DNA of 26,265 nt from a virus. Of this stretch, positions 1,409 to 20,415 are shown piece after piece (the first letter of the stretch is position 1; the number at the start of each line of letters is the position of its first letter). The notes under the pieces were generated by a model. It was given only the letters and a program-made list of their open reading frames with translations, did not search any database and was not told the DNA's origin. The position numbers were made by a program, and so were the translations under genes. The DNA lies in IMG/VR virus record IMGVR_UViG_3300025098_000245, positions 1 to 26,265 of that record; one strand, written 5' to 3'.

Positions 1409-1416
1409 ATTAAATA
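1409..1416 (+). promoter_or_regulatory. T4-type late promoter box ATTAAATA
   Basis: The box starts directly after the gp17 stop codon. Five bases (AGTAT) separate it from the ATG at 1422. With T4 late-promoter geometry (box about -13 to -6) transcription would begin on the A of the ATG. No Shine-Dalgarno sequence is present. Confidence 0.7.
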
Positions 1417-1421
1417 AGTAT

Positions 1422-1994
1422 ATGGCTGCTAACACTAACAATCAATCCTTTCTTAACAAGAGCAGAGCAGATAAGTTTAAGCTCGTCTTTGATCTACCAC
1501 CTGCTTTAAAGAGACTTGATTCAAAGGATGAGAGAAGCACGTTCAATGTTAATAGAGACGCTATGCAGTTCTCTGTATATGGTGCTGTTGTTCCAGCCAT
1601 TACCGTTCCTGCTATTCAGATTGCTTATGCTGGATCGAACTTATATAACTCAGGTCACGCCAAGACACCATATGAGCCTGTAACAGTTAACTTTACAATC
1701 GATAATGGTTATAACAACTACTGGGTACTTTATAAGTGGCTCGACCTTATGCATGATGAGAAGGAAGGTCTCTTTGATGCCTCCAATCTTGTTACTGATG
1801 AAGACTTCAGACAGTATCAAACAGATATGACACTCTATGGATTGGATGAATATAACGAGCAGCGCATCAAGTTTACTTATACAAAAGCCTTTCCTATCAC
1901 TGTTGGCTCTATTGACTATAGCTACAGAGATGAAGCTGAGATTACAAGCTCTCTAACGTTTGTTTACTCTCAAATCCATACAGAATTGTTGTAG
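1422..1994 (+). CDS. Tail tube-like protein (gp19 fold), upstream of sheath
   Basis: 190 residues; T4 gp19 has 163. The order is that of the gp19/gp54 tube fold: an N-terminal strand (DKFKLVFDLP), the core strands with a proline-rich turn (VVPAITVPAIQIAYAG), a strand and helix (VNFTIDNGYNNYWVLYKWLDL), and closing strands (AFPITVGSIDYSYRDEAEI, then SLTFVYSQI). Such proteins form the hexameric rings of the tube inside the sheath or cap it at the baseplate. A second and more gp19-like protein lies after the sheath (5864-6403), so this one may be a tube paralogue, a tube terminator or a baseplate junction protein. It has its own late box and sits between gp17 and the sheath gene. The fold is likely; the exact role is open. 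Confidence 0.7.
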   Translation: MAANTNNQSFLNKSRADKFKLVFDLPPALKRLDSKDERSTFNVNRDAMQFSVYGAVVPAITVPAIQIAYAGSNLYNSGHAKTPYEPVTVNFTIDNGYNNYWVLYKWLDLMHDEKEGLFDASNLVTDEDFRQYQTDMTLYGLDEYNEQRIKFTYTKAFPITVGSIDYSYRDEAEITSSLTFVYSQIHTELL

Positions 1995-2005
1995 AGAAAA
2001 ATAGA

Positions 2006-2019
2006 TTTTCAGCTGAAAA
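2006..2019 (+). repeat. 14-bp perfect palindrome upstream of sheath promoter
   Basis: TTTTCAGCTGAAAA is its own reverse complement and ends two bases before the sheath late box at 2022. It is not followed by a T-run, so it does not look like a terminator. It may be a protein-binding dyad, a processing site or chance. Confidence 0.4.
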
Positions 2020-2021
2020 GC

Positions 2022-2029
2022 CATAAATA
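2022..2029 (+). promoter_or_regulatory. T4-type late promoter box CATAAATA (sheath)
   Basis: Five bases (TAAGT) separate the box from the ATG at 2035, the same geometry as at 1409. No Shine-Dalgarno sequence is seen before the sheath start. Confidence 0.75.
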
Positions 2030-2034
2030 TAAGT

Positions 2035-4368
2035 ATGGCTAAAAGGACAATCCAATCGCCGGGCGTTGAGATTCGTGAGAGTGATTTATCACTTCGCACA
2101 GCTCAAACCGGAACTACTACTTATGTAGCTGGCTTTGCATCTGAAGGACCTACCGACGAAGTTGTTGGACTTGGAAGTATTTCTGAGTTTGAGCAAATTT
2201 ATGGTACACCAAAGACTGCAGCTGAACGCTACTTCTATCACACTACACGTGCTACACTTAACTCTACAGGTTCAGTACTTGTTAACCGCTTGCCTTATGG
2301 TGCTAGCAACGGACAAGGCTTCGGTTCTAAGATTAGTGTATTGGCATACCCTGCTATTGTTTGGGATCGCGATGCTGATGCAATCGTAACTGACGCTGAT
2401 AAAGAGAACGCTACTTACCTTCTCGGTGCTCCTACTCAGTTCGAAATGACTGACGAGCAGTACATGCAGTACAAAAATGGTGAGTTGTTTGAACAAAGCA
2501 AAGAACTTAAGACATCCTTCTCAGGTATTTCTGACTTGAGTGGTGCTGCTCTTGTTGTTGTTAACAAGGGACAGACTGTTATTGATGGTCAGTTCAATGG
2601 TTACTATGTTGGTGTTTCTGATAACACTAACCTTAACCCAGCAACAGACTTCGACGCTATTGTTGATGTTAAGACAGCAACAGCTGCTCCAGGCGCTACT
2701 GGTCTTTCTGCTTTCACAGACGTTCCTGCTTCTCGCTTTGAGTTCGCTCTTACAGCTACTCCAGAATTTGGTACTAACCCTGCTACTAATTCCATCTCAC
2801 AAGTTATGGAAGATCGCATCGTTGGTTATGATATCGGTGATCGTGAGTTTGATGATACATTGAACATTGGTGTATTCAAACTTCGTCAGTCTGTATTCTC
2901 TAAGGACGCTAATCGTCTTGATTACCTTCTTGAAGAGGGCTACAATGGCTCCATTGGTCAGTATCGTCAACGTAACTCTGAGAGCGGTGGTGCTCCAGTT
3001 AACTTCTCTCTTGATACTGTAAATGACCAGTCACGCAATATTGACATCGTTGTTAACCCTTTTGTTGCTGACGCTCTTGGTGGTGTTAACCTTAATGCAG
3101 ATGGTACTCCAAAGAAGAAGATTCGTGTTTACACTGAGTCATTCAAAGATGGTCTTCAGGGTGGTGCTATTTCATCTGACGCTGCTGGTCTTCCAATTAA
3201 CTTCTTCGCTGCTACTTTCGCAGGTGAGGTTGCTAAAGCAGACAGTCTTATCCCACTTGGTTCTTACGGTGAAGTAAGTCTTACATCTAAAGAAATCGGC
3301 TCCATTCCACTTAAGCTTGATCGTGCTCTTGATCGTATTCGTAACGATCGTAAGTTTGACATCGATATTATTGCTGAAGGTGGTCTTGGTACTATTCACA
3401 CTTACATGGAGACAGCTAATGCTACTCTCTCTGCTCGTGGTTTTGATGATACTCGTACAACAGCAGCTATTGAAGCTCTTCGTACTTCTAGTGATCTTGA
3501 CTCTACTGGTGAAGAAGCTCGTACAGCTTACACAACAGTCTTTAACCGCTTTGCGACATTTGCAGGTCCTGTTAAGGATGGTGGTCGTGGTGACATTCTT
3601 TTCGTTGCTGATCCAATCCGTCAGATTCTTGTAGCTGGTAAGTCACAGAAGGTACAGAAGGATCCTACAAAGAACTTCTACACTGACATCTACTGGGCAA
3701 TGCGCCATCAGTTCTCTCTTGCTAATACATCCTATGCAACAGTGTTTGCTAACTGGATGAAGGTATATGATAACTATACCGGCCTTTATGTATATGTTCC
3801 ATCTTCTGGCTTTGCTTGTGCTAAGATGGCTTCTACAGATGCTCAGGTTGGTCCATGGGGTGCACCTGCTGGATTCAATCGTGGTATTATTCAAGATGCT
3901 GATGATATTGCAATCAGCCCTAACCAACGTCAACGTGATGATCTTTACACCGTTAACCTTAACCCAGTAGCTAACTTTGCTGATCAGGGTAATGTGTTCT
4001 TCGGTCAGAAGACTCTCCTCAAGAAGCCAAGTGCATTCGATCGTATTAACGTTCGTCGTACTTTCCTCTACCTTGAGAAGATCACTAAAAAGACAATGCA
4101 GTTCTTCCTCTTTGAGAACAACACATTGTTTACTCGTACAAGAGTAGCTAATACTTTGACACCATTCTTTGAGCGTGTTAAAGCTGCTGACGGCTTGTAT
4201 GACTTTATGATCGTCTGTGACGAGCGTAACAATACTGGTGAAGTAATTGACCAGAACGAGCTCGTTGTTGATATTTACCTTAAGCCAGTTCGTACTGCTG
4301 AGTTCATTCTAGTTAACTTCTATGCTACCCGCACTGATACTAACTTTGAAGAGCTTATTGGAGGTTAA
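2035..4368 (+). CDS. 18: Tail sheath protein gp18
   Basis: Contractile sheath subunit; hexameric rings surround the tail tube and shorten on infection. 777 residues, longer than T4 gp18 (659); the extra length probably lies in the variable outer domains. The N-terminus IQSPGVEIRESDLSLRTAQT is typical of sheath proteins (SPGVE followed by a linker arm), and the LVNRLP strand closes the N-terminal core. The C-terminal core DIYLKPVRTAEFILVNFYAT ending in FEELIGG is the characteristic sheath C-terminus that carries the inter-subunit handshake strands. Arginine codons are almost all CGN with a single AGA, unlike the AGA-rich baseplate genes, as expected for a very abundant protein. A late box precedes it and a strong hairpin terminator follows. 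Confidence 0.95.
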   Translation: MAKRTIQSPGVEIRESDLSLRTAQTGTTTYVAGFASEGPTDEVVGLGSISEFEQIYGTPKTAAERYFYHTTRATLNSTGSVLVNRLPYGASNGQGFGSKISVLAYPAIVWDRDADAIVTDADKENATYLLGAPTQFEMTDEQYMQYKNGELFEQSKELKTSFSGISDLSGAALVVVNKGQTVIDGQFNGYYVGVSDNTNLNPATDFDAIVDVKTATAAPGATGLSAFTDVPASRFEFALTATPEFGTNPATNSISQVMEDRIVGYDIGDREFDDTLNIGVFKLRQSVFSKDANRLDYLLEEGYNGSIGQYRQRNSESGGAPVNFSLDTVNDQSRNIDIVVNPFVADALGGVNLNADGTPKKKIRVYTESFKDGLQGGAISSDAAGLPINFFAATFAGEVAKADSLIPLGSYGEVSLTSKEIGSIPLKLDRALDRIRNDRKFDIDIIAEGGLGTIHTYMETANATLSARGFDDTRTTAAIEALRTSSDLDSTGEEARTAYTTVFNRFATFAGPVKDGGRGDILFVADPIRQILVAGKSQKVQKDPTKNFYTDIYWAMRHQFSLANTSYATVFANWMKVYDNYTGLYVYVPSSGFACAKMASTDAQVGPWGAPAGFNRGIIQDADDIAISPNQRQRDDLYTVNLNPVANFADQGNVFFGQKTLLKKPSAFDRINVRRTFLYLEKITKKTMQFFLFENNTLFTRTRVANTLTPFFERVKAADGLYDFMIVCDERNNTGEVIDQNELVVDIYLKPVRTAEFILVNFYATRTDTNFEELIGG

Positions 4369-4392
4369 TTTTATTGTCCAAACCAAACAAAC

Positions 4393-4424
4393 AAGGAGGG
4401 GGTCGAAAGACCTCCTCTTTTTTT
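4393..4424 (+). terminator. Rho-independent terminator after sheath gene
   Basis: Bases 4396-4404 pair with 4409-4417 (nine pairs, one G-T) around a stable GAAA tetraloop. The stem extends outward as A-T pairs and is followed by seven Ts (4418-4424). It ends the sheath transcript about 25 bases after the stop codon and isolates it from the next late box. Confidence 0.9.
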
Positions 4425-4445
4425 GTGGAGAAATAGCTACAGTTG

Positions 4446-4453
4446 TATAAATA
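4446..4453 (+). promoter_or_regulatory. T4-type late promoter box TATAAATA (perfect consensus)
   Basis: A perfect T4 late consensus. Five bases (ATGGT) separate it from the ATG at 4459. It lies just after the sheath terminator, so the next gene has its own transcript. Confidence 0.8.
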
Positions 4454-4458
4454 ATGGT

Positions 4459-5142
4459 ATGGCCCAACATAGTAATTATGCCAAAGATAGAGACCTTATG
4501 ATGGAAGCTTATGGCTCTGTTCAAGGTATTGTTCCAAAGACTGCATCCACAGCATTGCCACGTGGTTACGTTCTCACTGAAGCTCACTGCGATGAAGAGG
4601 ATTTAGAGTCTGTTGAGCTTGGTGGTAAGCTTTATGAATTAGGTAATGATGACCCAAATGATGATGGTCTTGTTATTAGGATTGACAAGTATGCTAATGG
4701 CTACTTCATTACAGGTGGTGTTTATACTGAGCCAGAAGATTATGTAAATGATCCGGGGAATCCAAGAGAAGGTTACGGTTATGCTCTTGACCTCGATGGT
4801 CAGCCTATGGAAGAAGACGATCTTGAAGATGGTTTAGGTCATGAAGACAATGAGCAGCAAGAGGGTGCTACAAATGAGTTTCCTGATGGTGAAGGTAAGT
4901 ATGAGGTAGCAAGCGTTGGTGGAATGCATGGCCAATCCATAATGGGTGGTAAGAAGTTTAACTCTTTGCAAGCTGCTTGTGATGCTGCTGGTGCTGATAT
5001 CAAGGATTGCTACGAAGATGTAGATGGTTGGATCGATATGGAAGGTGATGGAACAACTCTTGAATTCGTAGTAGATGAAGATACAGCTATTGTTATGCAT
5101 AAGAATGTTCCTGCTGAAGACGGCTCTTGTGCTTCTCACTAA
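4459..5142 (+). CDS. Acidic protein of unknown function
   Basis: 227 residues, not recognised. The ATG at 4459 is chosen because the late box lies exactly five bases before it; the in-frame TTG at 4423 lies inside the terminator T-run and is not credible. The protein is strongly acidic, with a central run rich in D, E and N (around MEEDDLEDGLGHEDNEQQEG). Two possible beta regions flank it: GLVIRIDKYANGYFITGGVY, and KYEVASVGGMHGQSIMGG followed by a short helix with two cysteines (LQAACDAAGADIKDCYED). Residues 8-17 include DLMMEAYG, where MME|A resembles a prohead protease site (hydrophobic-x-E|A), so a head or virion protein is possible. It is transcribed alone between two terminators, in the block that separates the sheath from the main tube gene. 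Function unknown. Confidence 0.8.
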   Translation: MAQHSNYAKDRDLMMEAYGSVQGIVPKTASTALPRGYVLTEAHCDEEDLESVELGGKLYELGNDDPNDDGLVIRIDKYANGYFITGGVYTEPEDYVNDPGNPREGYGYALDLDGQPMEEDDLEDGLGHEDNEQQEGATNEFPDGEGKYEVASVGGMHGQSIMGGKKFNSLQAACDAAGADIKDCYEDVDGWIDMEGDGTTLEFVVDEDTAIVMHKNVPAEDGSCASH

Positions 5143-5155
5143 TCTACATTAAAAT

Positions 5156-5186
5156 AAGAAAAGGAAGTTTTACTTCCTTTTCTTTT
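5156..5186 (+). terminator. Hairpin terminator after acidic gene
   Basis: Bases 5158-5167 (GAAAAGGAAG) pair perfectly with 5173-5182 around a TTTTA loop. The stem can extend by two A-T pairs and the 3' side runs into TTTT. It lies 14 bases after the stop codon. The T-run is short, so it is weaker than the one after the sheath. Confidence 0.75.
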
Positions 5187-5206
5187 GGCTATTACTATGC
5201 CAGTTA

Positions 5207-5214
5207 ATTAAATA
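5207..5214 (+). promoter_or_regulatory. T4-type late promoter box ATTAAATA (homing endonuclease)
   Basis: Five bases (CTTAT) separate it from the ATG at 5220. The endonuclease gene thus carries a promoter of the same design as the structural genes. Confidence 0.7.
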
Positions 5215-5219
5215 CTTAT

Positions 5220-5822
5220 ATGGGATGTGTATATGCTATAACTTGCTCTGATAGATACTATATTGGTTCTACTAAGAACTTTCATAAACGTATGGCTGAG
5301 CATAAAGGGTTACTTGAGAAAGGTACACATAAGAATGCCTATATGCAGAGAGTATTTGATAAGTATGGGGGCTTTGAATATAAGATACTTGAGAGTGTAG
5401 AGGATGATAAGCTTGTAGATAGAGAGCAAGTACATATTGATAGGCACTATGATGATGTTAAGTGTATGAATGCTTCTCCTCATGCTCATAGAGCTTATAA
5501 CCCCTGGACTGATGAGAGTAGAAAGAAGATGAGTGAGTCTTGCAAGGGTCGTACACTTACAGAAGAGACAAAGAAGAAGATTAGTGATACAAAGAAGGGT
5601 AAGCCGAGTCCTAATCATAGAGCTGTTAAGTTTATCTGGAACGATAAAGAGTATGAGTTCTATGCTATGAGCCACTTCCTAAAAGAGTTTGGTGATTCAT
5701 CTCGTTGTATCTATAGAAGATTAACGAAGAATGCTGGTAAGTGGATTACCTTATATCGTGTTAACGAGAGTAGTAAGCACCCTTTTTCTAATGGAGATAA
5801 GCTTTTTTTATCATGGAAGTAG
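5220..5822 (+). CDS. GIY-YIG homing endonuclease (free-standing)
   Basis: 200 residues. The N-terminal nuclease domain shows the GIY-type strand as CVY (residues 3-5), YIG (14-16), the catalytic-type Arg24 in HKRM, and Glu69 in VDREQVHID; the linking helix has the usual NAYMQRVFDKYGG. A DNA-binding tail follows: two NUMOD3-like repeats (SRKKMSESCKGRTLTEETKK, then KISDTKKGKPSPNH) and a helix-turn-helix-like segment (SHFLKEFGDSSRCIYRRL). All expected catalytic positions are present and the frame is intact, so it is probably active. It would cut an intron-less or HEG-less allele of a nearby gene in a co-infecting relative and spread by repair. It lies between the sheath and tube genes, which are adjacent in T4, and probably entered as a selfish insertion. 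Confidence 0.92.
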   Translation: MGCVYAITCSDRYYIGSTKNFHKRMAEHKGLLEKGTHKNAYMQRVFDKYGGFEYKILESVEDDKLVDREQVHIDRHYDDVKCMNASPHAHRAYNPWTDESRKKMSESCKGRTLTEETKKKISDTKKGKPSPNHRAVKFIWNDKEYEFYAMSHFLKEFGDSSRCIYRRLTKNAGKWITLYRVNESSKHPFSNGDKLFLSWK

Positions 5823-5831
5823 GCTGATTGC

Positions 5832-5839
5832 TATAAATA
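5832..5839 (+). promoter_or_regulatory. T4-type late promoter box TATAAATA with a leader (tail tube)
   Basis: A perfect consensus, but 24 bases from the ATG at 5864. The predicted start is near 5845, which gives a leader of about 19 bases, A-rich near the start codon and without a clear Shine-Dalgarno sequence. It is the main exception to the five-base rule in this window. Confidence 0.7.
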
Positions 5840-5863
5840 TTAGTACTAACCATACTATAAAAA

Positions 5864-6403
5864 ATGCCAGTTTCTCAGAATATCCAAAACTTCTATCGTA
5901 CCGCAGCTGATAAAGATTTCAGCCGTGATTTTCTTTTCCGTGTGACTCAGTTACAGTTACAAGGGGTACCTGCTCTCGATGAGGGTGACCTTGTATATGT
6001 TAAGACTGCACAGCTTCCAGGCCGTAACATTGGTAACGTTGCTGTACCTTATATGGGTCTTAACTTGAATGTTCCAGGTGCTGTAACATATCCAGGCTCT
6101 GAAGCTTATACACTTGACTTCTACCTTGATGGTGAGAGTTCACTTCGTAACTACTTTGAGACTGCTTCCCGTTCCCTCTTTGATGATCAGACATCTACAG
6201 GTGAATATGGTACTCCTGATGATGACTTCTACATTCAGCTCGCTCAGCTTGATAAAGACCTTGAGCCAATCACTGAATATAAGCTTGTAGGTGCTTCTCT
6301 TCGTGCAGTTAATGGTATTGGTTATGATATCGCCACAGGTACAGGTGCTACTGTAAGCGTTAACGCTACTGTCTCTTACCACTTCTACACAAAAGAGCGC
6401 TAA
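5864..6403 (+). CDS. 19: Tail tube protein gp19
   Basis: 179 residues (T4 gp19 163). It follows gp19 from end to end: DFLFRVTQLQLQG corresponds to the first T4 strand, KTAQLPGRNIGNVAVPYMG to the conserved ATALP loop and next strand, and SEAYTLDFYLDGESSLRNYF to the central strand and helix. The last strand is VSVNATVSYHFY. These proteins stack as hexameric rings to form the channel through which DNA passes. Compared with the protein at 1422-1994 this one is the better match in length and in the LPG loop, so I assign it as the main tube subunit. It is the first gene of a two-gene unit, with the next ATG five bases after its stop, and is the only early tail gene here with a predicted real leader. 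Confidence 0.8.
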   Translation: MPVSQNIQNFYRTAADKDFSRDFLFRVTQLQLQGVPALDEGDLVYVKTAQLPGRNIGNVAVPYMGLNLNVPGAVTYPGSEAYTLDFYLDGESSLRNYFETASRSLFDDQTSTGEYGTPDDDFYIQLAQLDKDLEPITEYKLVGASLRAVNGIGYDIATGTGATVSVNATVSYHFYTKER

Positions 6404-6408
6404 GCTAA

Positions 6409-7134
6409 ATGCCTAATAATATTCGAAAGCGTCTAAGTCTACACCAAGACTGGACAAACGACATCCCTCTCAAGAACATTTGGGGGATCAACTTCTCAGC
6501 TCGTACTGGCAGTGGAGCTATGGTTAATGTCGGAGAGGCTATCGAATATTATTTAGATATTTACAGACCACGTACATATAAGGTTGATAAGTCTCTTTTT
6601 GATAGAGTATCGGATTACGAGGCGGGCTTCCTTCTTGCACAAGACGTCAATCTTCCAACAGTAGGTTTAGCTATTCAGGAATTAGATGTTCCCAAGTCTG
6701 GTGGTATGCAAGCTATGCAATATGCTGATCGTATTGGTGAAGATCACAACATGACAGTATCATTTCTTGAGACAAATAGAGATGTATTTTCATTTTTTAT
6801 TCAACCGTGGATAGTTGCTTGTGCATATGCTGGTTTGATTGAAGACGATAACGAACCAGACATTAAATGTAACATTGATATTATACAATACTCACGCACA
6901 GCTGAGAAGTATGGTGATAAGCTTGGTGAGTCTAACAAGCGTCGAAGAAGTAATGATCCAGTTGAGTATGGTATTCGTAAGATGCACACATTTTATGATT
7001 GTGTACCTACTACCATAAATGCAGAGGCTATTAGCTACGGTAAGCAGTCCGTATCCGATATAACTAGAACAGTAGGCTGGAACTTTGCACACTACCAACT
7101 AAATACTCCTAGAGGAGTGTTAAATGGAATTTAG
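6409..7134 (+). CDS. Tube-fold baseplate or tube-junction protein
   Basis: 241 residues. Seen: a strand and helix resembling the tube fold (HNMTVSFLETNRDVFSFFIQ, then PWIVACAYAGL), a strand KCNIDIIQYSR, and a late strand set CVPTTINAEAISYG followed by VGWNFAHYQL, which is the arrangement of the closing strands of gp19, gp48 and gp54. The N-terminal 40 residues are probably an arm. In T4, gp54 starts tube polymerisation on the baseplate; its position next to gp19 suits such a role, but the exact T4 counterpart is unsure because another candidate lies at 10413. It begins five bases after the tube gene and has no late box, so it is co-transcribed. Its last 11 bases overlap the next gene. Confidence 0.65.
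   Translation: MPNNIRKRLSLHQDWTNDIPLKNIWGINFSARTGSGAMVNVGEAIEYYLDIYRPRTYKVDKSLFDRVSDYEAGFLLAQDVNLPTVGLAIQELDVPKSGGMQAMQYADRIGEDHNMTVSFLETNRDVFSFFIQPWIVACAYAGLIEDDNEPDIKCNIDIIQYSRTAEKYGDKLGESNKRRRSNDPVEYGIRKMHTFYDCVPTTINAEAISYGKQSVSDITRTVGWNFAHYQLNTPRGVLNGI
7098..7105 (+). promoter_or_regulatory. Internal late promoter box ACTAAATA
   Basis: The box lies inside the 3' end of the preceding gene, 18 bases before the ATG at 7124. It is identical to the box at 7933. The predicted start is 7111, the first A of the Shine-Dalgarno sequence AGAGGAG. Confidence 0.55.
7103..7126 (+). promoter_or_regulatory. Hairpin covering the Shine-Dalgarno sequence of the gp26-like gene
   Basis: AGAGGAG (7111-7117) is the best Shine-Dalgarno sequence in the window, six bases before the ATG at 7124. 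Bases 7103-7109 can pair with 7114-7120 (seven pairs, one T-G) around a TAGA loop and would hide it in read-through mRNA. mRNA from the box at 7098 would start at about 7111, lack the left arm and leave the site free. Confidence 0.55.
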
Positions 7135-7933
7135 TATTGAAGTAGCGTTACCATCAGGTAAGAAGGTTAGAGTAAAAGAGCTCAAGAATAAAGAGTATCT
7201 CTCTATTATTAAATTCATTGAGAATAGAGATTTTAGAGGCCTTAGTAGCTTCTTTGATGAGGGGTTTATACGCTCAGATTTAAATATAGTAGATAGAATA
7301 TATCTTCTCATCTATATGAGAATGACATTTATCGATCCAGATCTACACTTAACTATTAATGATAAATCTATAACGGTTAGTATTGCTTCAATGCTAGATA
7401 AAATTGAGGCTAACTATGTTGATCTTGAGACTAAGATTACAGTAAATGGTATCGTAGTTACTTTAGATCTACCATGTATAACATACTTCGAAAACTATGA
7501 TGATTTACTTATTGCTACAATTAAGCATATACAGATAGGTAATGACTCCATTGATTATAGTGAGCTAGATGATGAAGTGCGTGAGGAAGTATTAAGTAAC
7601 TTACCTGCTGCTATATTTGATCATACTGAGAACTTCTTGCAGACAATACAAGAAAATTTATTAAATGTAGATCTTATTGATGCGAATGAATCAATAGGGT
7701 TGGAAGGAACACGCATTAATTTAATGGCTAATAATATGCTAGAGTTTATATCTAGTCTGTTTAGTACTGATTTGAGCGGCTTCTATACTCTCATCTACTC
7801 CTTTGGTAATACAATCATGCCTGGTAGTAGCTTGTTCTTTAATATATCACCAATCGAATCTACAATTATATTACGAACACATCAGAAAAGAGTTAGTGAA
7901 GAGAATAACAAGTTGCAAAAGCAAAAGCAATAA
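7124..7933 (+). CDS. Baseplate hub assembly protein, gp26-like (first copy)
   Basis: 269 residues (T4 gp26 208, gp51 249). Typical of the T4 gp26/gp51 baseplate chaperone group: a short N-terminal strand pair and KVRVKELKNKEYLSIIKFIE, then a helical stretch IVDRIYLLIYMRM, a small beta segment (DKSITVSIASML, VNGIVVTLDLP), then mostly helices, including EEVLSNLPAAIFDHTENFLQ. In T4 these catalyse hub assembly and are present in few or no copies in the virion. The C-terminus is a basic, glutamine-rich tail (NNKLQKQKQ). The ORF overlaps the previous gene by 11 bp but has its own strong Shine-Dalgarno sequence and an upstream late box. Arginine is AGA-rich, unlike the sheath. Family assignment rests on pattern and gene order. 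Confidence 0.65.
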   Translation: MEFSIEVALPSGKKVRVKELKNKEYLSIIKFIENRDFRGLSSFFDEGFIRSDLNIVDRIYLLIYMRMTFIDPDLHLTINDKSITVSIASMLDKIEANYVDLETKITVNGIVVTLDLPCITYFENYDDLLIATIKHIQIGNDSIDYSELDDEVREEVLSNLPAAIFDHTENFLQTIQENLLNVDLIDANESIGLEGTRINLMANNMLEFISSLFSTDLSGFYTLIYSFGNTIMPGSSLFFNISPIESTIILRTHQKRVSEENNKLQKQKQ

Positions 7934-7940
7934 CTAAATA
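7933..7940 (+). promoter_or_regulatory. T4-type late promoter box ACTAAATA
   Basis: The first base is the last base of the preceding stop codon TAA (7931-7933). Five bases (AGTGT) separate the box from the ATG at 7946. Confidence 0.7.
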
Positions 7941-7945
7941 AGTGT

Positions 7946-8686
7946 ATGAGTTCAACCGCTAAAAGCTTTTTGACCAAACTTAAAGATCTTAATGACACCA
8001 ATACTGTTTCTGTTAAAGTACCATCTTTAGATAAGAATGTGGAGTTTAAGCTTCCGAGCATAAAACAGCAGAAGGATCTCCTTCGTACAACATTTGACGG
8101 TGTTGATGGTATTATTACTAGAACAGCTGCAGCTAATCAGATTATTGTAGAAAACGCTATCGGTGAAGAGGAGTTTCTTATCATTGATAAGCCAGCGATT
8201 TTTATTGCTCTCCGAACTGCTTCTATTGGTTCAAAGATTACTGTTAAAGATGAGCAGTACGATCTTAAAAAGGTTAAGCCAATTAAGCTAGATGATGTTA
8301 AGTTTACTGAATCTGTTGAGCATGATGGTATTACTGTCGAACTTAAGGTACCTACACTTGCTGTTGATACAGAGGTTTCAAAGAAGCTAGCTAAAGAGTT
8401 TGCAAAGTTTGATACTATTGATGATAAGCTTAAGCAAAGTATTGATACAGTTGTAGCATTTGAGTCTATTAAGTATATTGAGAGCATATCTGTTGGTGAA
8501 GATAATGTAACCTTTAATGACATTAGTGTTCATGAGAGGAACGAAATTGTAAATCAGCTACCAATTGCTCTAAATCATAAGATTGTTGACTATATCGGTA
8601 GTATTAAAGAGGTAACGGATAAGGCCATGACCGTTGCTGAGGAAGTAGTTGTAGAAATTGATGCAAGCTTCCTATCTAGTGATTAA
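7946..8686 (+). CDS. Baseplate hub assembly protein, gp26-like (second copy)
   Basis: 246 residues, with the same plan as the gene before it: an N-terminal strand-loop-strand (SVKVPSLDKNVEFKLPSI) leading into KQQKDLLRTTFDGVDGIITR, a middle helix (PAIFIALRTASIG), a beta pair (GITVELKVPTLAVD), and a C-terminal helical half with the shared element NEIVNQLPIALNHKIVDYIG, comparable to EEVLSNLPAAIFDHTENFLQ in the first copy. This suggests the two are diverged paralogues of the gp26/gp51 chaperone group. It has its own late box and is directly upstream of the tape measure gene, the place expected for a hub factor (in T4 the hub genes 26, 51, 27, 28, 29 are together). Which of the two corresponds to gp26 and which to gp51 cannot be decided by eye. 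Confidence 0.6.
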   Translation: MSSTAKSFLTKLKDLNDTNTVSVKVPSLDKNVEFKLPSIKQQKDLLRTTFDGVDGIITRTAAANQIIVENAIGEEEFLIIDKPAIFIALRTASIGSKITVKDEQYDLKKVKPIKLDDVKFTESVEHDGITVELKVPTLAVDTEVSKKLAKEFAKFDTIDDKLKQSIDTVVAFESIKYIESISVGEDNVTFNDISVHERNEIVNQLPIALNHKIVDYIGSIKEVTDKAMTVAEEVVVEIDASFLSSD

Positions 8687-8689
8687 ATA
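8682..8689 (+). promoter_or_regulatory. T4-type late promoter box ATTAAATA containing the upstream stop codon
   Basis: The stop codon of the preceding gene (TAA, 8684-8686) is the first half of the TAAATA core. Five bases (ATAAT) separate the box from the GTG at 8695. Confidence 0.7.
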
Positions 8690-8694
8690 ATAAT

Positions 8695-14406: not shown

Positions 14407-14906
14407 ACGTCAATAACGTCTTCGTCCTTCTTATCAGCTTCTGGCTCTGGAGCCTTTAACATTGCTTCCATTAGCTCTTCACGAGACATTACCAACTTAG
14501 TTTGGTTATCTTGAATGTTAAGTTGCTGTTTGGCTTCGATATCCATTGTCTTAAGCTCTTTACGAGCCTCGTTATTAGCCTTATTAGCATGAATCTTCTG
14601 CATTGTCTCAATAGAGCTGTTTGCAGATCTCATAAGCTCAGCCAAGGAAGCAACATCTCTATTCTCAGGTGCTGAAGAGATATAGTCCTTAACATTGTCT
14701 ACAGCATCAAGTGTAGTATCAATAAGCTTTGCTGTCTTCTTAATAAGATAGTCTTCAAGATCTTCTACATCAGGAATCTCTTCTTTTGACTTCTGCTGCC
14801 TAGTAATGGAGTGATGCTGTGTACTCAACTGAGATAAGATGTCATCAACTGCACCGTCGACTTCATTACCACCGTTAGGATCAAATGCTGGATCATACTC
14901 TTCCAT
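14403..14906 (-). CDS. 16: Terminase small subunit gp16
   Basis: 167 residues (T4 gp16 164). The small subunit recognises concatemeric DNA and regulates gp17. The C-terminal half reads LAELMRSANSSIETMQKIHA and later LNIQDNQTKLVMSREELMEA; T4 gp16 has [20 protein letters not shown] and [20 protein letters not shown] at the same spacing, a clear match. The middle is a helical coiled-coil region and both ends are acidic. I choose the start at 14906, not the longer 14942, because a late box lies exactly five bases upstream of it on the minus strand. It is the only minus-strand gene, far from gp17, and it meets the 816-residue gene tail to tail with a four-base overlap. Confidence 0.8.
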   Translation of the reverse strand: MEEYDPAFDPNGGNEVDGAVDDILSQLSTQHHSITRQQKSKEEIPDVEDLEDYLIKKTAKLIDTTLDAVDNVKDYISSAPENRDVASLAELMRSANSSIETMQKIHANKANNEARKELKTMDIEAKQQLNIQDNQTKLVMSREELMEAMLKAPEPEADKKDEDVIDV

Positions 14907-14911
14907 ATACA

Positions 14912-14919
14912 TATTTAAT
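14912..14919 (-). promoter_or_regulatory. T4-type late promoter box ATTAAATA on minus strand (gp16)
   Basis: The minus strand reads ATTAAATA, five bases (TGTAT), then ATG at 14906. The geometry is the same as on the plus strand and decides the start of gp16. Confidence 0.7.
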
Positions 14920-14946
14920 CTAATGGCATTACTTTGCAACATTTAG

Positions 14947-14974
14947 TTGATTATTGCATTCAATATGCCATAAT
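14947..14974 (+). promoter_or_regulatory. Possible host sigma-70-like promoter for dut
   Basis: TTGATT (14947-14952), 16 bases, then CATAAT (14969-14974), eight bases before the ATG at 14983. Matches are 4/6 and 5/6. This would fit a gene used early in infection. Chance in AT-rich DNA cannot be excluded. Confidence 0.4.
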
Positions 14975-14982
14975 AGAGTTAT

Positions 14983-15405
14983 ATGTTACTGCAATTTGAA
15001 AAGACTCATGTAGACGCTGTTCTGCCTGGTAAGAATCATGATAGCGATACTGGTATGGATGTTACTTGTATCGAGGACTTTACTATTCCAGCTCGTGGCT
15101 CTGCTGTTGTTGGTGTTGGACTTAAGTTTGCTTTTATTCAGCCTGGATATTGGGTTAAGGTAGAAGGTCGTTCTGGTCTTGGCTTTAAGCATGGTATCAT
15201 GCCTCATCCTGGTATCATTGATAGCGGCTATAGAGGAGACGCAGGAATTAAATTGTACAATCTTACTGATAAGGACTATGAAGGCAAGGCAGGTGATCGT
15301 ATTGCTCAGTTTGTTGTTTATACTAACCATGATGTAATCGTGACCGAAGGCGATGTTGTAGAGTCGGACCGAGGCGAGAAAGGCTTTGGTTCATCCGGTA
15401 AGTAA
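14983..15405 (+). CDS. dut: dUTP diphosphatase (trimeric dUTPase)
   Basis: 140 residues. Hydrolyses dUTP to dUMP and diphosphate, which keeps uracil out of DNA and supplies the dTMP precursor. All five motifs of the homotrimeric family are present: motif 1 SDTGMDV (21-27), motif 2 VEGRSGLG (60-67), motif 3 GIIDSGYRGDA (77-87) with catalytic Asp80 and Tyr83, motif 4 GDRIAQFVV (104-112), and motif 5 RGEKGFGSSGK (130-140), the glycine-rich arm that closes over the neighbouring active site. Complete and probably active. It has no late box; a sigma-70-like promoter may precede it. It lies between divergent gp16 and the clamp loader gene, as a small replication block inside the late region. Confidence 0.96.
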   Translation: MLLQFEKTHVDAVLPGKNHDSDTGMDVTCIEDFTIPARGSAVVGVGLKFAFIQPGYWVKVEGRSGLGFKHGIMPHPGIIDSGYRGDAGIKLYNLTDKDYEGKAGDRIAQFVVYTNHDVIVTEGDVVESDRGEKGFGSSGK

Positions 15406-15415
15406 GGAACTTATA

Positions 15416-15421
15416 TATAAT
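15416..15421 (+). promoter_or_regulatory. Possible -10 element TATAAT upstream of gp44
   Basis: TATAAT lies five bases (TAGAT) before the ATG at 15427. No good -35 hexamer is found at the expected distance. It could also be a degenerate late box. The nearest Shine-Dalgarno-like AAGGAA (15405-15410) is 16 bases from the ATG, too far to serve it. Confidence 0.35.
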
Positions 15422-15426
15422 TAGAT

Positions 15427-16353
15427 ATGGTTGATTTTGATAAGATTTGGGTTGAGAAGTATCGTCCGGCTAAGCTTGATGATCTTATTCTTGACGAAGG
15501 CTCTCTTAGAGTTGTTAGTCAGTTTAAGGATGAGATTCCTAACTTGCTATTCGTAGGAAGTCCTGGTACTGGTAAGACTACTCTTGCTCGTATCATTGTT
15601 AATGATATTCTAGGTTGTAACTTCCTCTACATTAATGCTTCTGATGAGTCTGGTATTGATGTTATTCGTCATAACATTACTAACTTTGCTCAGACCAAGT
15701 CATTTGATGGTGGTATTAAAGTAGTAGTTCTAGATGAGGCTGATGGACTTACTCCTCAGGCTCAAGCTGCTCTACGTAATACTATGGAGACGTACGCTAA
15801 GTACTGTCGTTTTATTCTTACTGCTAACTATAAGCATAAGATCATTCCAGCTCTTCAGTCAAGATGTCAGTCAATCGATCTTAAACCTGAGATCAAACAA
15901 GCAGCTAAGCGTTGCTTCAATATACTAAAACAAGAAAACGTAAACGTAAGTGATGAACAGAAAATTAAATTTGGTCAGCTGGTTAAAAGAACATTCCCTG
16001 ACCTCCGAAAAACTATCAACGAGCTCCAAAAGTCGGTTGTTGATGGGGAGTTGTTTATTGATAGCAGCGGGAGTGACAGTGAACTTCTTAAGGCAGTCAC
16101 GGAAGGACTCAAAGAAGACTCGATTAAGGTAAGAAAGTATCTTATCGAGAACGAAGATCGCTTTCAAGGTGACTATGATACCCTTCTTGCTAACTTGTTA
16201 GACTATCTCTATGAGCAGCCTATTGATGAGTTCAAGAAGAAGCAGATGATTACTATCATTGCTGATCATCTTTATAAGAGTGCCTTCGTTGTTGATAAAG
16301 AAATTAATGCTTTTGCTTGTATTGTTGCTTTAGAATTAGCCCTTAGGGCATAA
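15427..16353 (+). CDS. 44: Sliding clamp loader large subunit gp44
   Basis: 308 residues (T4 gp44 319). The AAA+ ATPase subunit of the gp44/62 complex that loads the gp45 clamp for replication and, in T4, indirectly for late transcription. Seen: the N-terminal VEKYRPAKLDDLI, Walker A GSPGTGKT (44-51), Walker B VVVLDEAD (99-106), sensor 1 FILTANY (129-135), and the arginine-finger SRC motif (145-147). A C-terminal helical collar follows (to LYEQPIDEFKKKQMITIIAD). All catalytic residues are present. Its stop codon TAA is part of the next late box. The gene is separated from dut by 21 bases and may share its transcript. Confidence 0.95.
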   Translation: MVDFDKIWVEKYRPAKLDDLILDEGSLRVVSQFKDEIPNLLFVGSPGTGKTTLARIIVNDILGCNFLYINASDESGIDVIRHNITNFAQTKSFDGGIKVVVLDEADGLTPQAQAALRNTMETYAKYCRFILTANYKHKIIPALQSRCQSIDLKPEIKQAAKRCFNILKQENVNVSDEQKIKFGQLVKRTFPDLRKTINELQKSVVDGELFIDSSGSDSELLKAVTEGLKEDSIKVRKYLIENEDRFQGDYDTLLANLLDYLYEQPIDEFKKKQMITIIADHLYKSAFVVDKEINAFACIVALELALRA

Positions 16354-16356
16354 ATA
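16349..16356 (+). promoter_or_regulatory. T4-type late promoter box CATAAATA containing gp44 stop codon
   Basis: The gp44 stop codon (TAA, 16351-16353) is the first half of the TAAATA core. Five bases (TATGC) separate it from the ATG at 16362. It should drive the three-gene operon to 18919. Confidence 0.7.
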
Positions 16357-16361
16357 TATGC

Positions 16362-17861
16362 ATGAAGTTTAACGACTCCTTCGATAAATACATGAGCCTC
16401 TTTAATGAGGCCAAGGAAGCTCCTAAAGGTAAGCATTACGATAAAGCTGGTAGACTTCAGTCTGGTGATGCTGACTCTGATGGTCGTGGAGGTCCTAAGT
16501 TTCGTTCTGACCCTACCTATAAGAATCCTAATGAGGATGAAGAAGGTAGAGAGTTCTTCTTTGGTTATGATATTGAAAATGTTCATCCAGTTGAAGAGTT
16601 TGTAAAAGCAAATTACAAAGAGGGTGAGTATGGGGTGTCTGTTGGTCATGGTGATGATGTAATGAATTACTTAAAAGTTAATGTTGATCTCGATGATGAG
16701 AGAGGTAAGAAACTTTTAGACATGATTGAAGATTGTGATGGTGAGGGTAATTTCGATGAGGATGATTACTTTGAGGATGAAGAAGGTAAGAAAAAGGGTC
16801 TCGATGGTAAAGCATGCTGGGATGGTTATGAGCTACGAGGTACTAAAAAGAAGGGTGGCAAGACTGTTGACAATTGTGTAAAGTCTTCTGATGAAGAGTC
16901 TTCAGAAGATAACGAGACTGCTAAGAAGATTGGTAAGGGTGCGTTAAAGCTTGCCGGTAAGGCTGCTTTAGGTACTGCGAAGTTAGCTGGTAAAGGTGCT
17001 CGTGAGGTTGCTCATTTTGCAACAGATGATGTGTATAGGAGTAAAAAAGAAGATTGCGAGACTTGTGGATGTGAAGAGAATCCAGAGTATGGTCACTTAG
17101 ATGATACTTACTCTAAATACATTGATCAGTACGAGCCTAAAGAAGATTGTGAGACTTGTGGATGTGAAGATGCTGAAGCTGGTTGTGAATGTGGCAATTG
17201 TCCGGACTGCACTCCTAAAGAAGATAACGAATATGATACGGGTGAAGTGTTTGATACAATTTCTGATGATATTAAAGCTGGTATGACAATGGCTGAACTT
17301 ATAGACGAGCATGGTGCTGATTACGTTAAGGAGTTTATGGAATATCTCGCTGTAAGTAAACGTGATAGACCTACTGCTAAAACAAACCCACGCCCACATG
17401 TCAATCGTAAGGTAGTCAAAAATATTAAGAATACACCTGGACCAGATCCAATTGAAGCTGAAGATGCTGAGTATGATATGGGTGAAGTGCTTGATGCAAT
17501 TGCTGCTGATTTTGCAAATGGTATGACTAAATCAGAACTTGAGGCTAGATATGGTACTGATGCTGTTGCAAAGTTCATTAAGTATGGTGATGAAGATGGA
17601 CTTACTGCCTCTGAAGATGGTGAAAGAGTAGACAAAGATCGTATGAAGTGTAACTCACCTCGTCGTACATCTGGTGGTTCTAAGAAGTTTGTTGTTAAGG
17701 CTTGTGAGAATGGTAAAGAGAAGGTTGTACGCTTCGGTGATCCAAATATGAAGATCAAGAAGAGTAATCCAAAGCGTCGTAAGTCTTTCCGTGCACGTCA
17801 TAAGTGTGACCAGAAGAAGAGCAAGTTCTCCGCTGGTTACTGGAGCTGTAAGAAGTGGTAA
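16362..17861 (+). CDS. Cysteine-rich multidomain protein with capsid-targeting-like N-terminus
   Basis: 499 residues in at least five parts. Residues 1-17, MKFNDSFDKYMSLFNEA, resemble the N-terminal targeting peptide of T4 internal proteins, with FNE|A as possible prohead-protease site. An acidic region leads to KACWDGYELRGTKKKGGKTV ending in DNC (Cys152 and Cys172), a module I recall from marine T4-like phages. Next is a Lys/Ala/Gly amphipathic stretch (KIGKGALKLAGKAALGTAKL). Residues 232-283 hold ten cysteines: two CETCGC copies, then CECGNCPDC. Two related helical repeats follow (YDTGEVFDTISDDIKAGMT at about 291, YDMGEVLDAIAADFANGMT at about 371). The last 70 residues are basic and end with RRKSFRARHKCD and GYWSCKKW, also familiar from this phage group. 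Function unknown; a packaged or head-internal role is inferred. Confidence 0.85.
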   Translation: MKFNDSFDKYMSLFNEAKEAPKGKHYDKAGRLQSGDADSDGRGGPKFRSDPTYKNPNEDEEGREFFFGYDIENVHPVEEFVKANYKEGEYGVSVGHGDDVMNYLKVNVDLDDERGKKLLDMIEDCDGEGNFDEDDYFEDEEGKKKGLDGKACWDGYELRGTKKKGGKTVDNCVKSSDEESSEDNETAKKIGKGALKLAGKAALGTAKLAGKGAREVAHFATDDVYRSKKEDCETCGCEENPEYGHLDDTYSKYIDQYEPKEDCETCGCEDAEAGCECGNCPDCTPKEDNEYDTGEVFDTISDDIKAGMTMAELIDEHGADYVKEFMEYLAVSKRDRPTAKTNPRPHVNRKVVKNIKNTPGPDPIEAEDAEYDMGEVLDAIAADFANGMTKSELEARYGTDAVAKFIKYGDEDGLTASEDGERVDKDRMKCNSPRRTSGGSKKFVVKACENGKEKVVRFGDPNMKIKKSNPKRRKSFRARHKCDQKKSKFSAGYWSCKKW

Positions 17862-17864
17862 GTT

Positions 17865-18716: not shown

Positions 18717-18919
18717 TGAAATCTTTTAAAGAATTTTTTGAAGAGAACTTCAAGGACGGTAAGAAGAAAGGCAAGAGTCGTCCTGGTCGTGTTAAGAAGT
18801 CGGGTGCAAGCTGTAAAGGCTCTGTAACTGAGCTTCGTAAGAAGGCTAAGAAGTATGGTGGTGAGAAAGGTAAGATGTATCACTGGTGTGCTAACATGAA
18901 GAAGGGTAAAAAGAAGTAA
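18716..18919 (+). CDS. Small basic protein with T4-type capsid-targeting N-terminus
   Basis: 67 residues. The first ten, MKSFKEFFEE, match the T4 internal-protein targeting sequence MKTYQEFIAE almost position by position (M-K-S/T-F/Y-K/Q-E-F-x-x-E); FEE|N would be the prohead-protease site. The rest is lysine-rich: KSRPGRVKKSGASCKGSVTE, then LRKKAKKYGG, then KMYHWCANMKKGKKK, with two cysteines. This domain is familiar to me from marine T4-like phages, often fused to larger proteins. In T4 the internal proteins IPI-III are packed beside the DNA, cleaved by gp21 and injected with it. A DNA-binding, packaged, injected role here is inferred. Coupled to the gene before it. Intact frame; real gene by coupling and domain conservation. 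Confidence 0.75.
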   Translation: MKSFKEFFEENFKDGKKKGKSRPGRVKKSGASCKGSVTELRKKAKKYGGEKGKMYHWCANMKKGKKK

Positions 18920-18939
18920 TACATTTATTTTTACTTCTT
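18911..18939 (-). repeat. Inverted repeat AAGAAGTAA / TTACTTCTT at operon end
   Basis: Perfect nine-base arms (18911-18919 and 18931-18939) with an 11-base loop; the left arm holds the stop codon of the 67-residue gene. On the plus strand no T-run follows, so a plus-strand terminator would be weak. On the minus strand the stem is followed by Ts, which fits a terminator read in that direction or an RNA 3' end protector. Confidence 0.45.
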
Positions 18940-18961
18940 GCTTGTAATTACTATACTGGTG

Positions 18962-18969
18962 ATTAAATA
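18962..18969 (+). promoter_or_regulatory. T4-type late promoter box ATTAAATA (coiled-coil protein)
   Basis: Five bases (AGTGT) separate it from the ATG at 18975, the same spacer as at 7941-7945. Confidence 0.75.
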
Positions 18970-18974
18970 AGTGT

Positions 18975-20369
18975 ATGGTCAAAACACTTAATACTGAATT
19001 TCCAGTAGAGCATAGTAGTGATAATGTTAATATCATCTATGTTGAGTCACTTAATAATGTCTATAAAGACCTCTACCATGCTACAAGTAATGGTGAGAAG
19101 TCAGTATTGAAGGCCATTGAAGAAGGTAATGGCTTCATTGTAGCCTCTACAAACATTACTGTTGAAGGTGAGACTACTAAACAGTTAGTAAGAGTTGAAG
19201 AAGGTAAAGAGCCTAAAGTATGTCTTAATGATAGCCTTTATAGTGTTATTGAAGAGGCTAATAAAGTAGCTGAAGAAAAGGTTATTGAGGAAAAGAAAGC
19301 TGCTAAGAAGGCAAAGACAGAAGCTATTACAAATCTTATTGTAGGTGCTCTTGATGAGCAAGTTAAAGCTGTTCAAGAGAAGGCCAAGTTAAACTTTGAT
19401 AAGGTTGTTGAAGAGAGTAAGAAAAGAGTTAAGGCTGCAAAGAAGAAGCCAGTAGCTGTAAAGGTAGATGTTCAACAAAAAGAAGAAGTTGTTGTTGAGC
19501 AGGCTAAACAAGAGCTTGAGAAGGTTGAAGAAGAGATTGCTGAAACAAGTAAGTATATTCAGCATCAGGTTATGGAAGATTATGAACCTGAGAAGGGTGA
19601 TAAGAGCTTCCAGAGTGATATGAAAGCTCTTAAGTCTGAGTTAGAAACTAAGATTAATAACCTCTTTGATAATCAGACAAGAGACATTCGCAAGATTGCT
19701 GAGATGTCTTCTGGCGGTGGTGGTAATGAATCACGCTCTATTATCAATGAAACTAACATTGCTATATTGAGTGCTGATGTTGGTGAGTTTGAAAATGTTA
19801 CAGTTAACCAACGTGAGCAGTTCCAAGGTTATATTGCTCTCCTTTCACCAGTTTACTTCGGTGGTAGTGCTACTACATTTGACATACCTATTGAAGATGT
19901 TAATACGTGGGTAGATGTTGAGCTTGAAGTAGATCCAGAAGGTACATTTGACTATCGTGTTACTTCAATGAAGACAGCGGCGTTAAGTGGATATGAAGGT
20001 ACAGGTGCTAATGGTGATCCAATCATCTTCGATCTTGAGGGTCTTGAGTTAACTTCATCAGCTGATATTCGTGTATCAATGAGCTTTAACCCGGATGATG
20101 ATGGTGGTCGACTTGATAGTAGACTTAACTTCTTCCGTCATAGTGGTATTCCACTTTCAGCTACTAACTTCCACATTGAAGCTTCTTCTCTTGCAATGGA
20201 ATCAGGAGCTGATGAAAGTTATGCATACTTGCCAGGTATCAAGTTCTTTATTGGTGATACAATCGATACTAACGGTCCAGGTGATGCTGGTAGGGTCTGC
20301 TTCCAGATCAAATCAGACGTTCCTGGAACTGTAACAATGAACGAAATTGCAATGTTCATTCAGAAATAA
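18975..20369 (+). CDS. Coiled-coil fibre or tail-surface protein
   Basis: 464 residues in three parts. Residues 1-80: small domain with strands NVNIIYVESLNNVYKD and GFIVASTNITVEG. Residues about 85-240: long Lys/Glu/Ala helix (EEANKVAEEKVIEEKKAAKK and on), a likely trimeric coiled coil or stalk. A glycine hinge (SSGGGGNES) leads to a beta domain of about 210 residues (TFDIPIEDVNTWVDVELEV, DIRVSMSFNPDDDGGRLDSR, AYLPGIKFFIGDTID, GTVTMNEIAMFIQK), which may be a distal receptor-binding or trimerising domain. The plan is that of a short tail fibre or whisker. It has its own late box and stands just before the giant fibre gene, which suggests a shared adhesion apparatus. No homologue recognised. 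Confidence 0.6.
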   Translation: MVKTLNTEFPVEHSSDNVNIIYVESLNNVYKDLYHATSNGEKSVLKAIEEGNGFIVASTNITVEGETTKQLVRVEEGKEPKVCLNDSLYSVIEEANKVAEEKVIEEKKAAKKAKTEAITNLIVGALDEQVKAVQEKAKLNFDKVVEESKKRVKAAKKKPVAVKVDVQQKEEVVVEQAKQELEKVEEEIAETSKYIQHQVMEDYEPEKGDKSFQSDMKALKSELETKINNLFDNQTRDIRKIAEMSSGGGGNESRSIINETNIAILSADVGEFENVTVNQREQFQGYIALLSPVYFGGSATTFDIPIEDVNTWVDVELEVDPEGTFDYRVTSMKTAALSGYEGTGANGDPIIFDLEGLELTSSADIRVSMSFNPDDDGGRLDSRLNFFRHSGIPLSATNFHIEASSLAMESGADESYAYLPGIKFFIGDTIDTNGPGDAGRVCFQIKSDVPGTVTMNEIAMFIQK

Positions 20370-20398: not shown

Positions 20399-20406
20399 TT
20401 TAAATA
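20399..20406 (+). promoter_or_regulatory. T4-type late promoter box TTTAAATA (giant fibre)
   Basis: Nine bases from the ATG at 20416, so the predicted start near 20412 leaves a leader of about four bases. It differs from the five-base rule but still leaves almost no leader. Confidence 0.55.
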
Positions 20407-20415
20407 CATAATACT

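Follow-up and report, generated by a model that had tools for sequence, protein, structure and literature searches.

Late promoter boxes at a fixed short distance from start codons predict leaderless first-gene mRNAs in a clade of uncultured T4-related viruses

The late genes of bacteriophage T4 are the textbook example of translation led by a Shine-Dalgarno (SD) sequence. T4 late promoters are described as TATA boxes of 8 bp that have no -35 element (review, PMC2988020), with the box at -13 to -6 (PMC1524935). One criterion for leaderless genes is a promoter box some 10-12 bp upstream of the start codon (PMC3160421), and phage transcripts have been remarked to be often leaderless in work on the giant phage AR9, in which 5' untranslated regions (UTRs) measure 26-491 bases (PMC5312081). 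Leaderless bacterial genes (PMC3160421) and T4-type late promoters are each already known separately; no publication pairing such promoters with leaderless mRNA was present among the matches listed by our literature search, whose coverage left out most subscription journals; the one paper in which T4-like late promoters and the word leaderless occur together has that word only in the title of a cited reference. Here, IMG/VR record IMGVR_UViG_3300025098_000245, a 26,265-base virus record with a T4-like gene set (the window, meaning this whole stretch), was analyzed together with its relatives, a clade of T4-related viruses that are uncultured and represented by environmental DNA, for TAAATA boxes placed five bases before start codons.

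A sequence-only reading of the window had reported nine TAAATA boxes separated from a start codon by exactly five bases (spacing N5) and three exceptions with other spacings. All nine were found at those places, eight on the plus strand and one on the minus strand, with eight ATG starts and one GTG (at 8695), and the three exceptions were likewise confirmed (N24 at 5864, N18 at 7124 and N9 at 20416). The boxes and their genes are as follows.

1411-1424, plus strand: late box TAAATA, N5, ATG of a tail-tube-like gene (tube1, 1422-1994)
2024-2037, plus strand: late box TAAATA, N5, ATG of the tail sheath gene (2035-4368)
4448-4461, plus strand: late box TAAATA, N5, ATG of gene 4459-5142
5209-5222, plus strand: late box TAAATA, N5, ATG of a GIY-YIG homing endonuclease gene (5220-5822)
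7935-7948, plus strand: late box TAAATA, N5, ATG of a baseplate hub-like gene (7946-8686)
8684-8697, plus strand: late box TAAATA, N5, GTG of a tape-measure-like gene (8695-10413)
14904-14917, minus strand: late box TAAATA (14917-14912), N5, ATG of gene 14906-14403
16351-16364, plus strand: late box TAAATA, N5, ATG of gene 16362-17861
18964-18977, plus strand: late box TAAATA, N5, ATG of gene 18975-20369
5832-5866, plus strand: exception, TATAAATA, N24, ATG of a tail tube gene (tube2, 5864-6403), predicted leader of 19 bases
7100-7126, plus strand: exception, box 7100-7105 inside gene 6409-7134, N18, ATG of a hub-like gene (7124-7933)
20401-20418, plus strand: exception, late box, N9, ATG of a giant fibre gene (20416 to the window end), predicted leader of about 4 bases

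On both strands of the window, TAAATA-N5-ATG occurs 8 times against 0.77 expected, the largest count in 100 dinucleotide-preserving shuffles being 3. Sequences with at most one mismatch to TATAAATA show no excess by themselves in the window (57 vs 55.5 expected) while the N5 spacing does, so the signal lies in the placement of the boxes and not in their number.

A scan of relatives for N5 versus other spacings, which the sequence-only reading had proposed, gave a large N5 excess. The total set comprised 182 partly overlapping loci, many of them fragments, with 2,515 open reading frames (ORFs) called by a simple caller; it was made up of 80 related-sheath loci plus the window, long contigs and 67 loci retrieved through a gp41-like helicase, and redundant contexts were collapsed at 75% identity. 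Non-redundant sites at spacings N0 to N10 numbered 7, 13, 3, 9, 2, 230, 81, 24, 28, 20 and 10, over a background mean of 4.7 sites per spacing at N13-N40. In a first pass on the 80 sheath loci and the window, 325 raw and 96 non-redundant sites had been found at N5 and 22 at N6. The contrast set, 40 loci (L081-L120) fetched with window gene 17865, of which only 23 carry any of the tested T4-like markers, held 5 non-redundant N5 sites without a peak. Four of these five lie in L081-L083, which belong to the clade and were still inside the contrast set in the first spacing, SD and TATAAT-spacing counts; the remaining 37 loci contain 1 N5 site among 678 ORFs. In T4, the box-to-start spacing peaks at N21-30.

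The spacing is conserved at orthologous genes. A box precedes all 71 sheath starts found (66 at N5, 4 at N6 and 1 at N7, near-identical copies included), and 41 of the 41 distinct sheath upstream sequences, from proteins 45-100% identical, have it at N5-N7, 37 of them at N5. Among distinct ortholog upstreams, tube1 has the box at N5-N9 in 39/43 (32 at N5, four without a box) and tube2 at N5 in 30/36, the window copy being the only one at N24. N5 was also found in 5/5 upstreams of gene 4459-5142, 15/27 of the hub-like gene 7946 (7 without a box) and 2/2 of gene 16362-17861, and in three of four, the fourth at N6, of both the GIY-YIG gene 5220 and the minus-strand gene 14906-14403. The tape-measure-like gene 8695 has N5 with GTG in 7/7, which perhaps keeps the level of this low-copy protein low. 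Gene 18716 is without a box in the window, yet has N5 in 5/6 upstreams. The hub-like gene 7124 has N18 in 7/28, with 13 lacking a box; for genes 18975 and 20416 the comparison held the window's own copy only, and the terL row was left uncounted, the window holding only a fragment of terL. A late box stands upstream of the dUTPase gene in 0/9, the clamp loader gene in 2/10 (N4 and N17) and the operon-internal gene 10413 in 0/10. Boxes like TATAAATA precede the virion genes for sheath, tube, hub and tape measure, as in T4-type late promoters, the late class here being taken from gene type and not from timing. In a 116-kb relative, a box at N5-N7 was flagged for 38 ORFs, and 29 of these fall within 38-95 kb, a region that holds the sheath, terminase and clamp-loader homologs. 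The GIY-YIG endonuclease gene with its own N5 late box sits just upstream of the N24 tube gene (window 5209-5863); insertion of the endonuclease may have displaced the tube2 promoter, giving N24.

The -13 to -6 placement of late boxes in T4, on which the sequence-only reading relied, is confirmed in print (PMC1524935), and N5 would therefore put +1 at the first base of the start codon. The first T of TAAATA lies 11 bases upstream of the codon at N5, within the distance that marks leaderless genes. Sites at N4 number only 2 versus 230 at N5, a drop expected because RNA starting at box+6 would cut the A off AUG at N4. Bacterial RNA polymerase prefers to start on a purine that follows a pyrimidine. 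A pyrimidine occupies -1 in 186 of 195 N5 ATG sites and in 168 of 310 box-less starts; with the GTG starts, which make up 35 of the 230 N5 sites, the count is 209/230 (Fisher p ~1e-21). At the N7-N10 sites, the pyrimidine-purine step ending at box+2 to box+7 was present in 25, 21, 34, 11, 46 and 20 of 82, and is most frequent at box+6 (46/82).

SD content was counted as AGGA, GGAG or GAGG at -18 to -4, with an upstream stretch as control, for ORFs of at least 300 bases and their first ATG in the sheath loci and long contigs, the helicase set being excluded. SD was present at 2% of 122 clade N5 starts (control 3%) and at 5% of 310 clade box-less starts (control 6%), the upstream regions of the latter being A-rich and G-poor; in the contrast set it was present at 62% of the 32 starts that have a far box and at 37% of the 295 box-less ones. 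Over all gene positions in eight clade records (the window, G001-G005, G019 and G020), SD was found at 21/641 starts (3%), compared with 113/220 in T4, 79/176 in HTVC008M and 77/175 in Mosig. Divergently oriented genes must have their own promoters, and 90 of the 121 divergent starts in the eight records (27/32 in a 154.6-kb record) carry a promoter at leaderless distance, namely a late box at N5-N9 (71/121) or a TATAAT-like box at N5-N8 (19/121), versus 1/18 in T4, 4/14 in HTVC008M and 2/11 in Mosig. The majority of same-strand gaps in these records are shorter than 40 bases, and 215 of the 297 closely spaced operon-internal starts are without any tested promoter.

Early and replication genes have an equivalent layout with another promoter. 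In 75 intergenic upstream stretches without a late box, TATAAT occurs 32 times vs 12.3 in shuffled sequence, and its non-redundant spacing to the start codon peaks at N6 (38 sites; 13 at N5 and 20 at N7). This N6 peak was absent, at small counts, from T4, HTVC008M, Mosig, the contrast set and 49-kb pieces of S-PM2 and Melnitz-1. A TTGA hexamer lies exactly 16 bases upstream of TATAAT in 30 of 70 early promoters, and no comparable TTGA spacing peak was found upstream of the 230 N5 late sites, which lack a -35 element in this respect. GAACT occurs within 12 bases of TATAAT in 13 of the 70 early-type promoters, in 10 of them at exactly four bases (window 15406-15426; relatives L195, L043, L046, L064, L132, L134, L159, L215, L175, L217 and L226), and GAACT-N4-TATAAT is a possible middle-promoter element, unlike the MotA box of T4 in sequence. 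G or C precedes GAACT in 12 of the 13. One promoter of each kind was read in the window.

14947-14985, plus strand: early-type promoter TTGATT-N16-CATAAT, N8, ATG of the dUTPase gene (14983-15405)
15406-15429, plus strand: GGAACT-N4-TATAAT, N5, ATG of the gp44-like clamp loader gene (15427-16353), possible middle promoter

With a -10 element occupying -12 to -7, a leaderless start would lie at N6, and the one-base difference between the early N6 and late N5 peaks is that expected from the two promoter geometries. In Deinococcus radiodurans, genes taken as leaderless have their -10 motif ~6-7 bp ahead of the ORF (PMC12340547). Early and replication genes of the clade share the close promoter placement, and leaderlessness is therefore predicted genome-wide rather than for late genes only. 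What is new here is this class of early and replication TATAAT promoters, often with TTGA 16 bases upstream and most often six bases from the start codon.

Genes for the T4-type late transcription machinery are present in relatives. A gp55-like protein was found in 4 of the 8 helicase-bearing records searched with profile phrog_12791; it shares 34-37% identity with the gp55 proteins of S-PM2, HTVC008M, Mosig and Melnitz-1, and the four genes themselves have TATAAT at N6-N8. The gene lies between uvsW-like and gp47-like genes, the T4-like order (uvsW-like neighbor vs S-PM2 uvsW, E 1e-58 and 3e-64 in the two tested; gp47-like neighbor vs S-PM2, E 4e-18 to 3e-22 in three). A home-made gp55 profile gave no convincing match. 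A gp45-like clamp was found in relatives G004 and G002 (phrog_223), the genome scan alone giving 1 of 18 records, and a relative's clamp has no match among isolated phages. Phage-encoded ribosomal protein S21 was found in 0 of 18 records.

From the box, its spacing, its conservation at orthologs, the -1/+1 signature, the lack of SD and the gp55-like and gp45-like genes of relatives, it is highly probable that the boxes are T4-type late promoters, that first-gene late mRNAs at N5 sites are leaderless, and that early genes are likewise leaderless through sigma-70-type promoters. In this mechanism, a gp55-like sigma factor would read the TAAATA boxes, RNA would start six bases past the box as in T4, a position that in the clade usually coincides with the opening base of the start codon, and ribosomes would recognize a 5'-terminal AUG or GUG on first-gene late mRNAs, probably as 70S ribosomes. 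Early and replication genes would be transcribed from TTGANN-N16-TATAAT or GAACT-N4-TATAAT, with the start codon most often one base farther than from the late box. We infer both the exact 5' end and the translation of operon-internal genes by coupling. The wider proposition that the whole clade has dropped leaders and SD, the first gene of most early, middle and late units being leaderless behind two or three promoter types at exact distances, appears probable.

The claims of the sequence-only reading fared differently. Leaderless late mRNAs with +1 on the start codon are supported for N5 sites, but the N6-N9 sites imply short leaders of roughly 0-4 bases; a leaderless mode for most late genes fits the N5 first genes but not the operon-internal starts, 215/297 of which have no promoter of their own among those tested. 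The absence of SD at leaderless starts is borne out by the N5 counts (2% of 122, control 3%). The arrangement is not particular to late genes, with TATAAT mostly at N6 before early and replication genes and SD at 3% of 641 starts.

A number of observations weigh against leaderless initiation as proposed here. The 5' ends in the clade are predictions from sequence, the ORF and start calls allowed several start candidates per gene, and conservation inside TAAATA is by construction because TAAATA was the fixed search string. Among clade starts with a farther box, SD is present at 11% of 28 (control 4%), and the leader of gene 7124 holds AGAGGAG between box 7100 and the ATG, though this stretch is also coding. 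None of the tested promoters is carried by 26/121 divergent starts, and same-strand starts after a gap of at least 40 bases have a promoter at leaderless distance in only 44/86. Profile phrog_234 found gp55 in 0 of 18 sheath-bearing records, and the window, too short to show them, is itself without gp55 or gp45. The -1 pyrimidine is weaker at N5 GTG starts (23/35), and E. coli ribosomes use leaderless GTG poorly, while 35/230 N5 starts are GTG. The step at box+4 is also frequent at N7-N10 sites (34/82), and at N6 sites it falls at box+6 in 34/81 and at the ATG in 26/81; with step positions so mixed, some messages therefore probably have a one-base leader.

The boxes could instead act in the RNA, TAAATA at -11 being a translation signal such as an AU-rich S1 or 30S standby site in a leadered mRNA started farther upstream. 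A clade without SD, whose box-less starts are A-rich and G-poor, does need some SD-independent signal, but a translation signal does not account for two boxes that peak at two spacings (N5 and N6), each fitting its promoter geometry, for TTGA exactly 16 bases from TATAAT in 30/70, for a -1/+1 step most frequent at box+6 even where the ATG lies elsewhere (N7-N10), or for boxes found after terminator-like stems and between divergent genes; we consider it very improbable. Late promoters whose start is shifted by 1-3 bases, leaving leaders of 1-3 bases or a first start codon partly missing, would be in keeping with the N6-N9 sites (81, 24, 28 and 20), with the step at box+6 in 34/81 N6 sites and with the variable -10 to +1 distance of known promoters. 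That N4 has 2 sites, that N5 is almost three times N6 and that -1 is a pyrimidine in 186/195 N5 ATG sites make such a shift unlikely.

The layout may also be a by-product of genome packing in an SD-ignoring host, leaders having been lost for space without any special initiation. SD is rare at every gene position (21/641) and not at late genes alone, early genes place host-type promoters likewise, and most same-strand gaps are below 40 bases, all of which accord with packing, whereas the exact N5 peak over N6-N8 is left unexplained by packing alone. This explanation concerns the meaning of the layout, not its anatomy, and its odds overlap with those of leaderless initiation at T4-type promoters; we grant it a serious chance, somewhat short of even.

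The window encodes a terminase large subunit (fragment), tail-tube-like proteins, sheath, the GIY-YIG endonuclease, baseplate hub proteins, a tape-measure-like protein, dUTPase and the gp44-like clamp loader. Bases 1-20400 have no DNA match among 50,697 phage records; every match of terminase and sheath to known phages is below 60% identity, and the N-terminal part of the sheath weakly matches two records of one isolated phage. No tRNA genes were found in the window and the 20 stretches searched. A further feature was read by eye downstream of the sheath gene, ahead of the late box that follows.

4395-4422, plus strand: terminator-like stem-loop and T run

This stem-loop lies directly 5' of the late box, and T runs also precede the boxes at several orthologous tube starts; stem-loops and T runs ahead of late boxes suggest short late transcription units.

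Clues to the host were also sought. A Bacteroidota host, with which the lack of SD would agree, is not favored: TTTG-N17,23-TANNTTTG shows no enrichment across whole contigs and is absent from the 75 box-less upstream stretches, and early promoters are of the sigma-70 kind. Slightly in its favor, TA..TTTG alone occurs 10 times vs 4.2, and TTG-N18,24-TA..TTTG 3 times vs 0.5, in those stretches. The one relative found in genome_contigs, a 6.7-kb contig labelled Brachyspira murdochii with a sheath 37% identical, has GGAG and no N5 box upstream of the sheath start and an N6 box at one small minus-strand gene; it was taken as outside the clade and not as host evidence. Pfam searches of 20 proteins from relatives gave no usable host marker. 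In the 154.6-kb relative, a FecR-domain protein adjoins a protein with CHASE2 and adenylate/guanylate cyclase domains (L221, 4179-7324), and a sugar/radical-SAM cluster (L218, 10377-19629, and L219, 580-2719) includes an epimerase, a DegT aminotransferase, glycosyltransferases and a B12-binding radical SAM protein.

If the proposed mechanism is true, leaderless initiation can carry very high expression, as of tube, sheath and tape-measure proteins, and the clade hints at environmental hosts for which such initiation is essential; clade-wide leaderlessness would imply host bacteria with ribosomes that start efficiently on 5'-terminal AUG and GUG. The box is also of practical use: it pins down start codons in clade genomes, which offer SD-based gene callers few signals. 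Among cultured phages, pelagiphages that have N5 genes are an available test system. In 19 isolates, ATAAATA-N5-ATG counted against a reversed-pattern control stands out in HTVC008M (9/1), Mosig (8/0) and, weakly, Melnitz-1 (4/0), the others including T4 (2/0), an Ochrobactrum phage (3/1), PA5oct (8/4), phiKZ (5/6) and P-SSM2 (3/3). For TAAATA-N5-ATG, the counts were 14 vs 4 in HTVC008M, 11 vs 3 in Mosig and 10 vs 5 in T4.

Compared with known systems, the clade resembles the T4 late promoter (gp55, gp33 and gp45) in its TATA-type box without a -35 element and in the gp55-like and gp45-like genes of relatives. It differs in that the two bases ahead of TAAATA are loose and the start codon stands five bases from the box, whereas in T4 it most often stands 21-30 bases away with SD between at most such genes. 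Bacterial leaderless genes of Deinococcus-Thermus and Actinobacteria similarly have a box ~6-12 bases before the start codon (PMC3160421, PMC12340547), and the D. radiodurans -10 motif ~6-7 bp upstream resembles the early TATAAT boxes of the clade (PMC12340547). Those cells use one housekeeping promoter type for them and GGAG-type genes coexist (PMC3160421, PMC12340547), in contrast to two or three promoter types in the clade, of which a phage sigma factor presumably reads one, and a near absence of SD. The Pelagibacter phages HTVC008M (loci L122 and L242-L246) and Mosig (L124 and L247-L251) share TAAATA-N5-start with the clade at 11/183 and 6/184 ORFs, including a homologous gp3-like tail completion gene in both, but N5 is a minority there and ~45% of starts have SD, vs 3% in the clade. 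Finally, single leaderless phage messages such as that of lambda cI share a transcript that starts at the AUG, but concern one gene, compared with many first genes of a genome in the clade.

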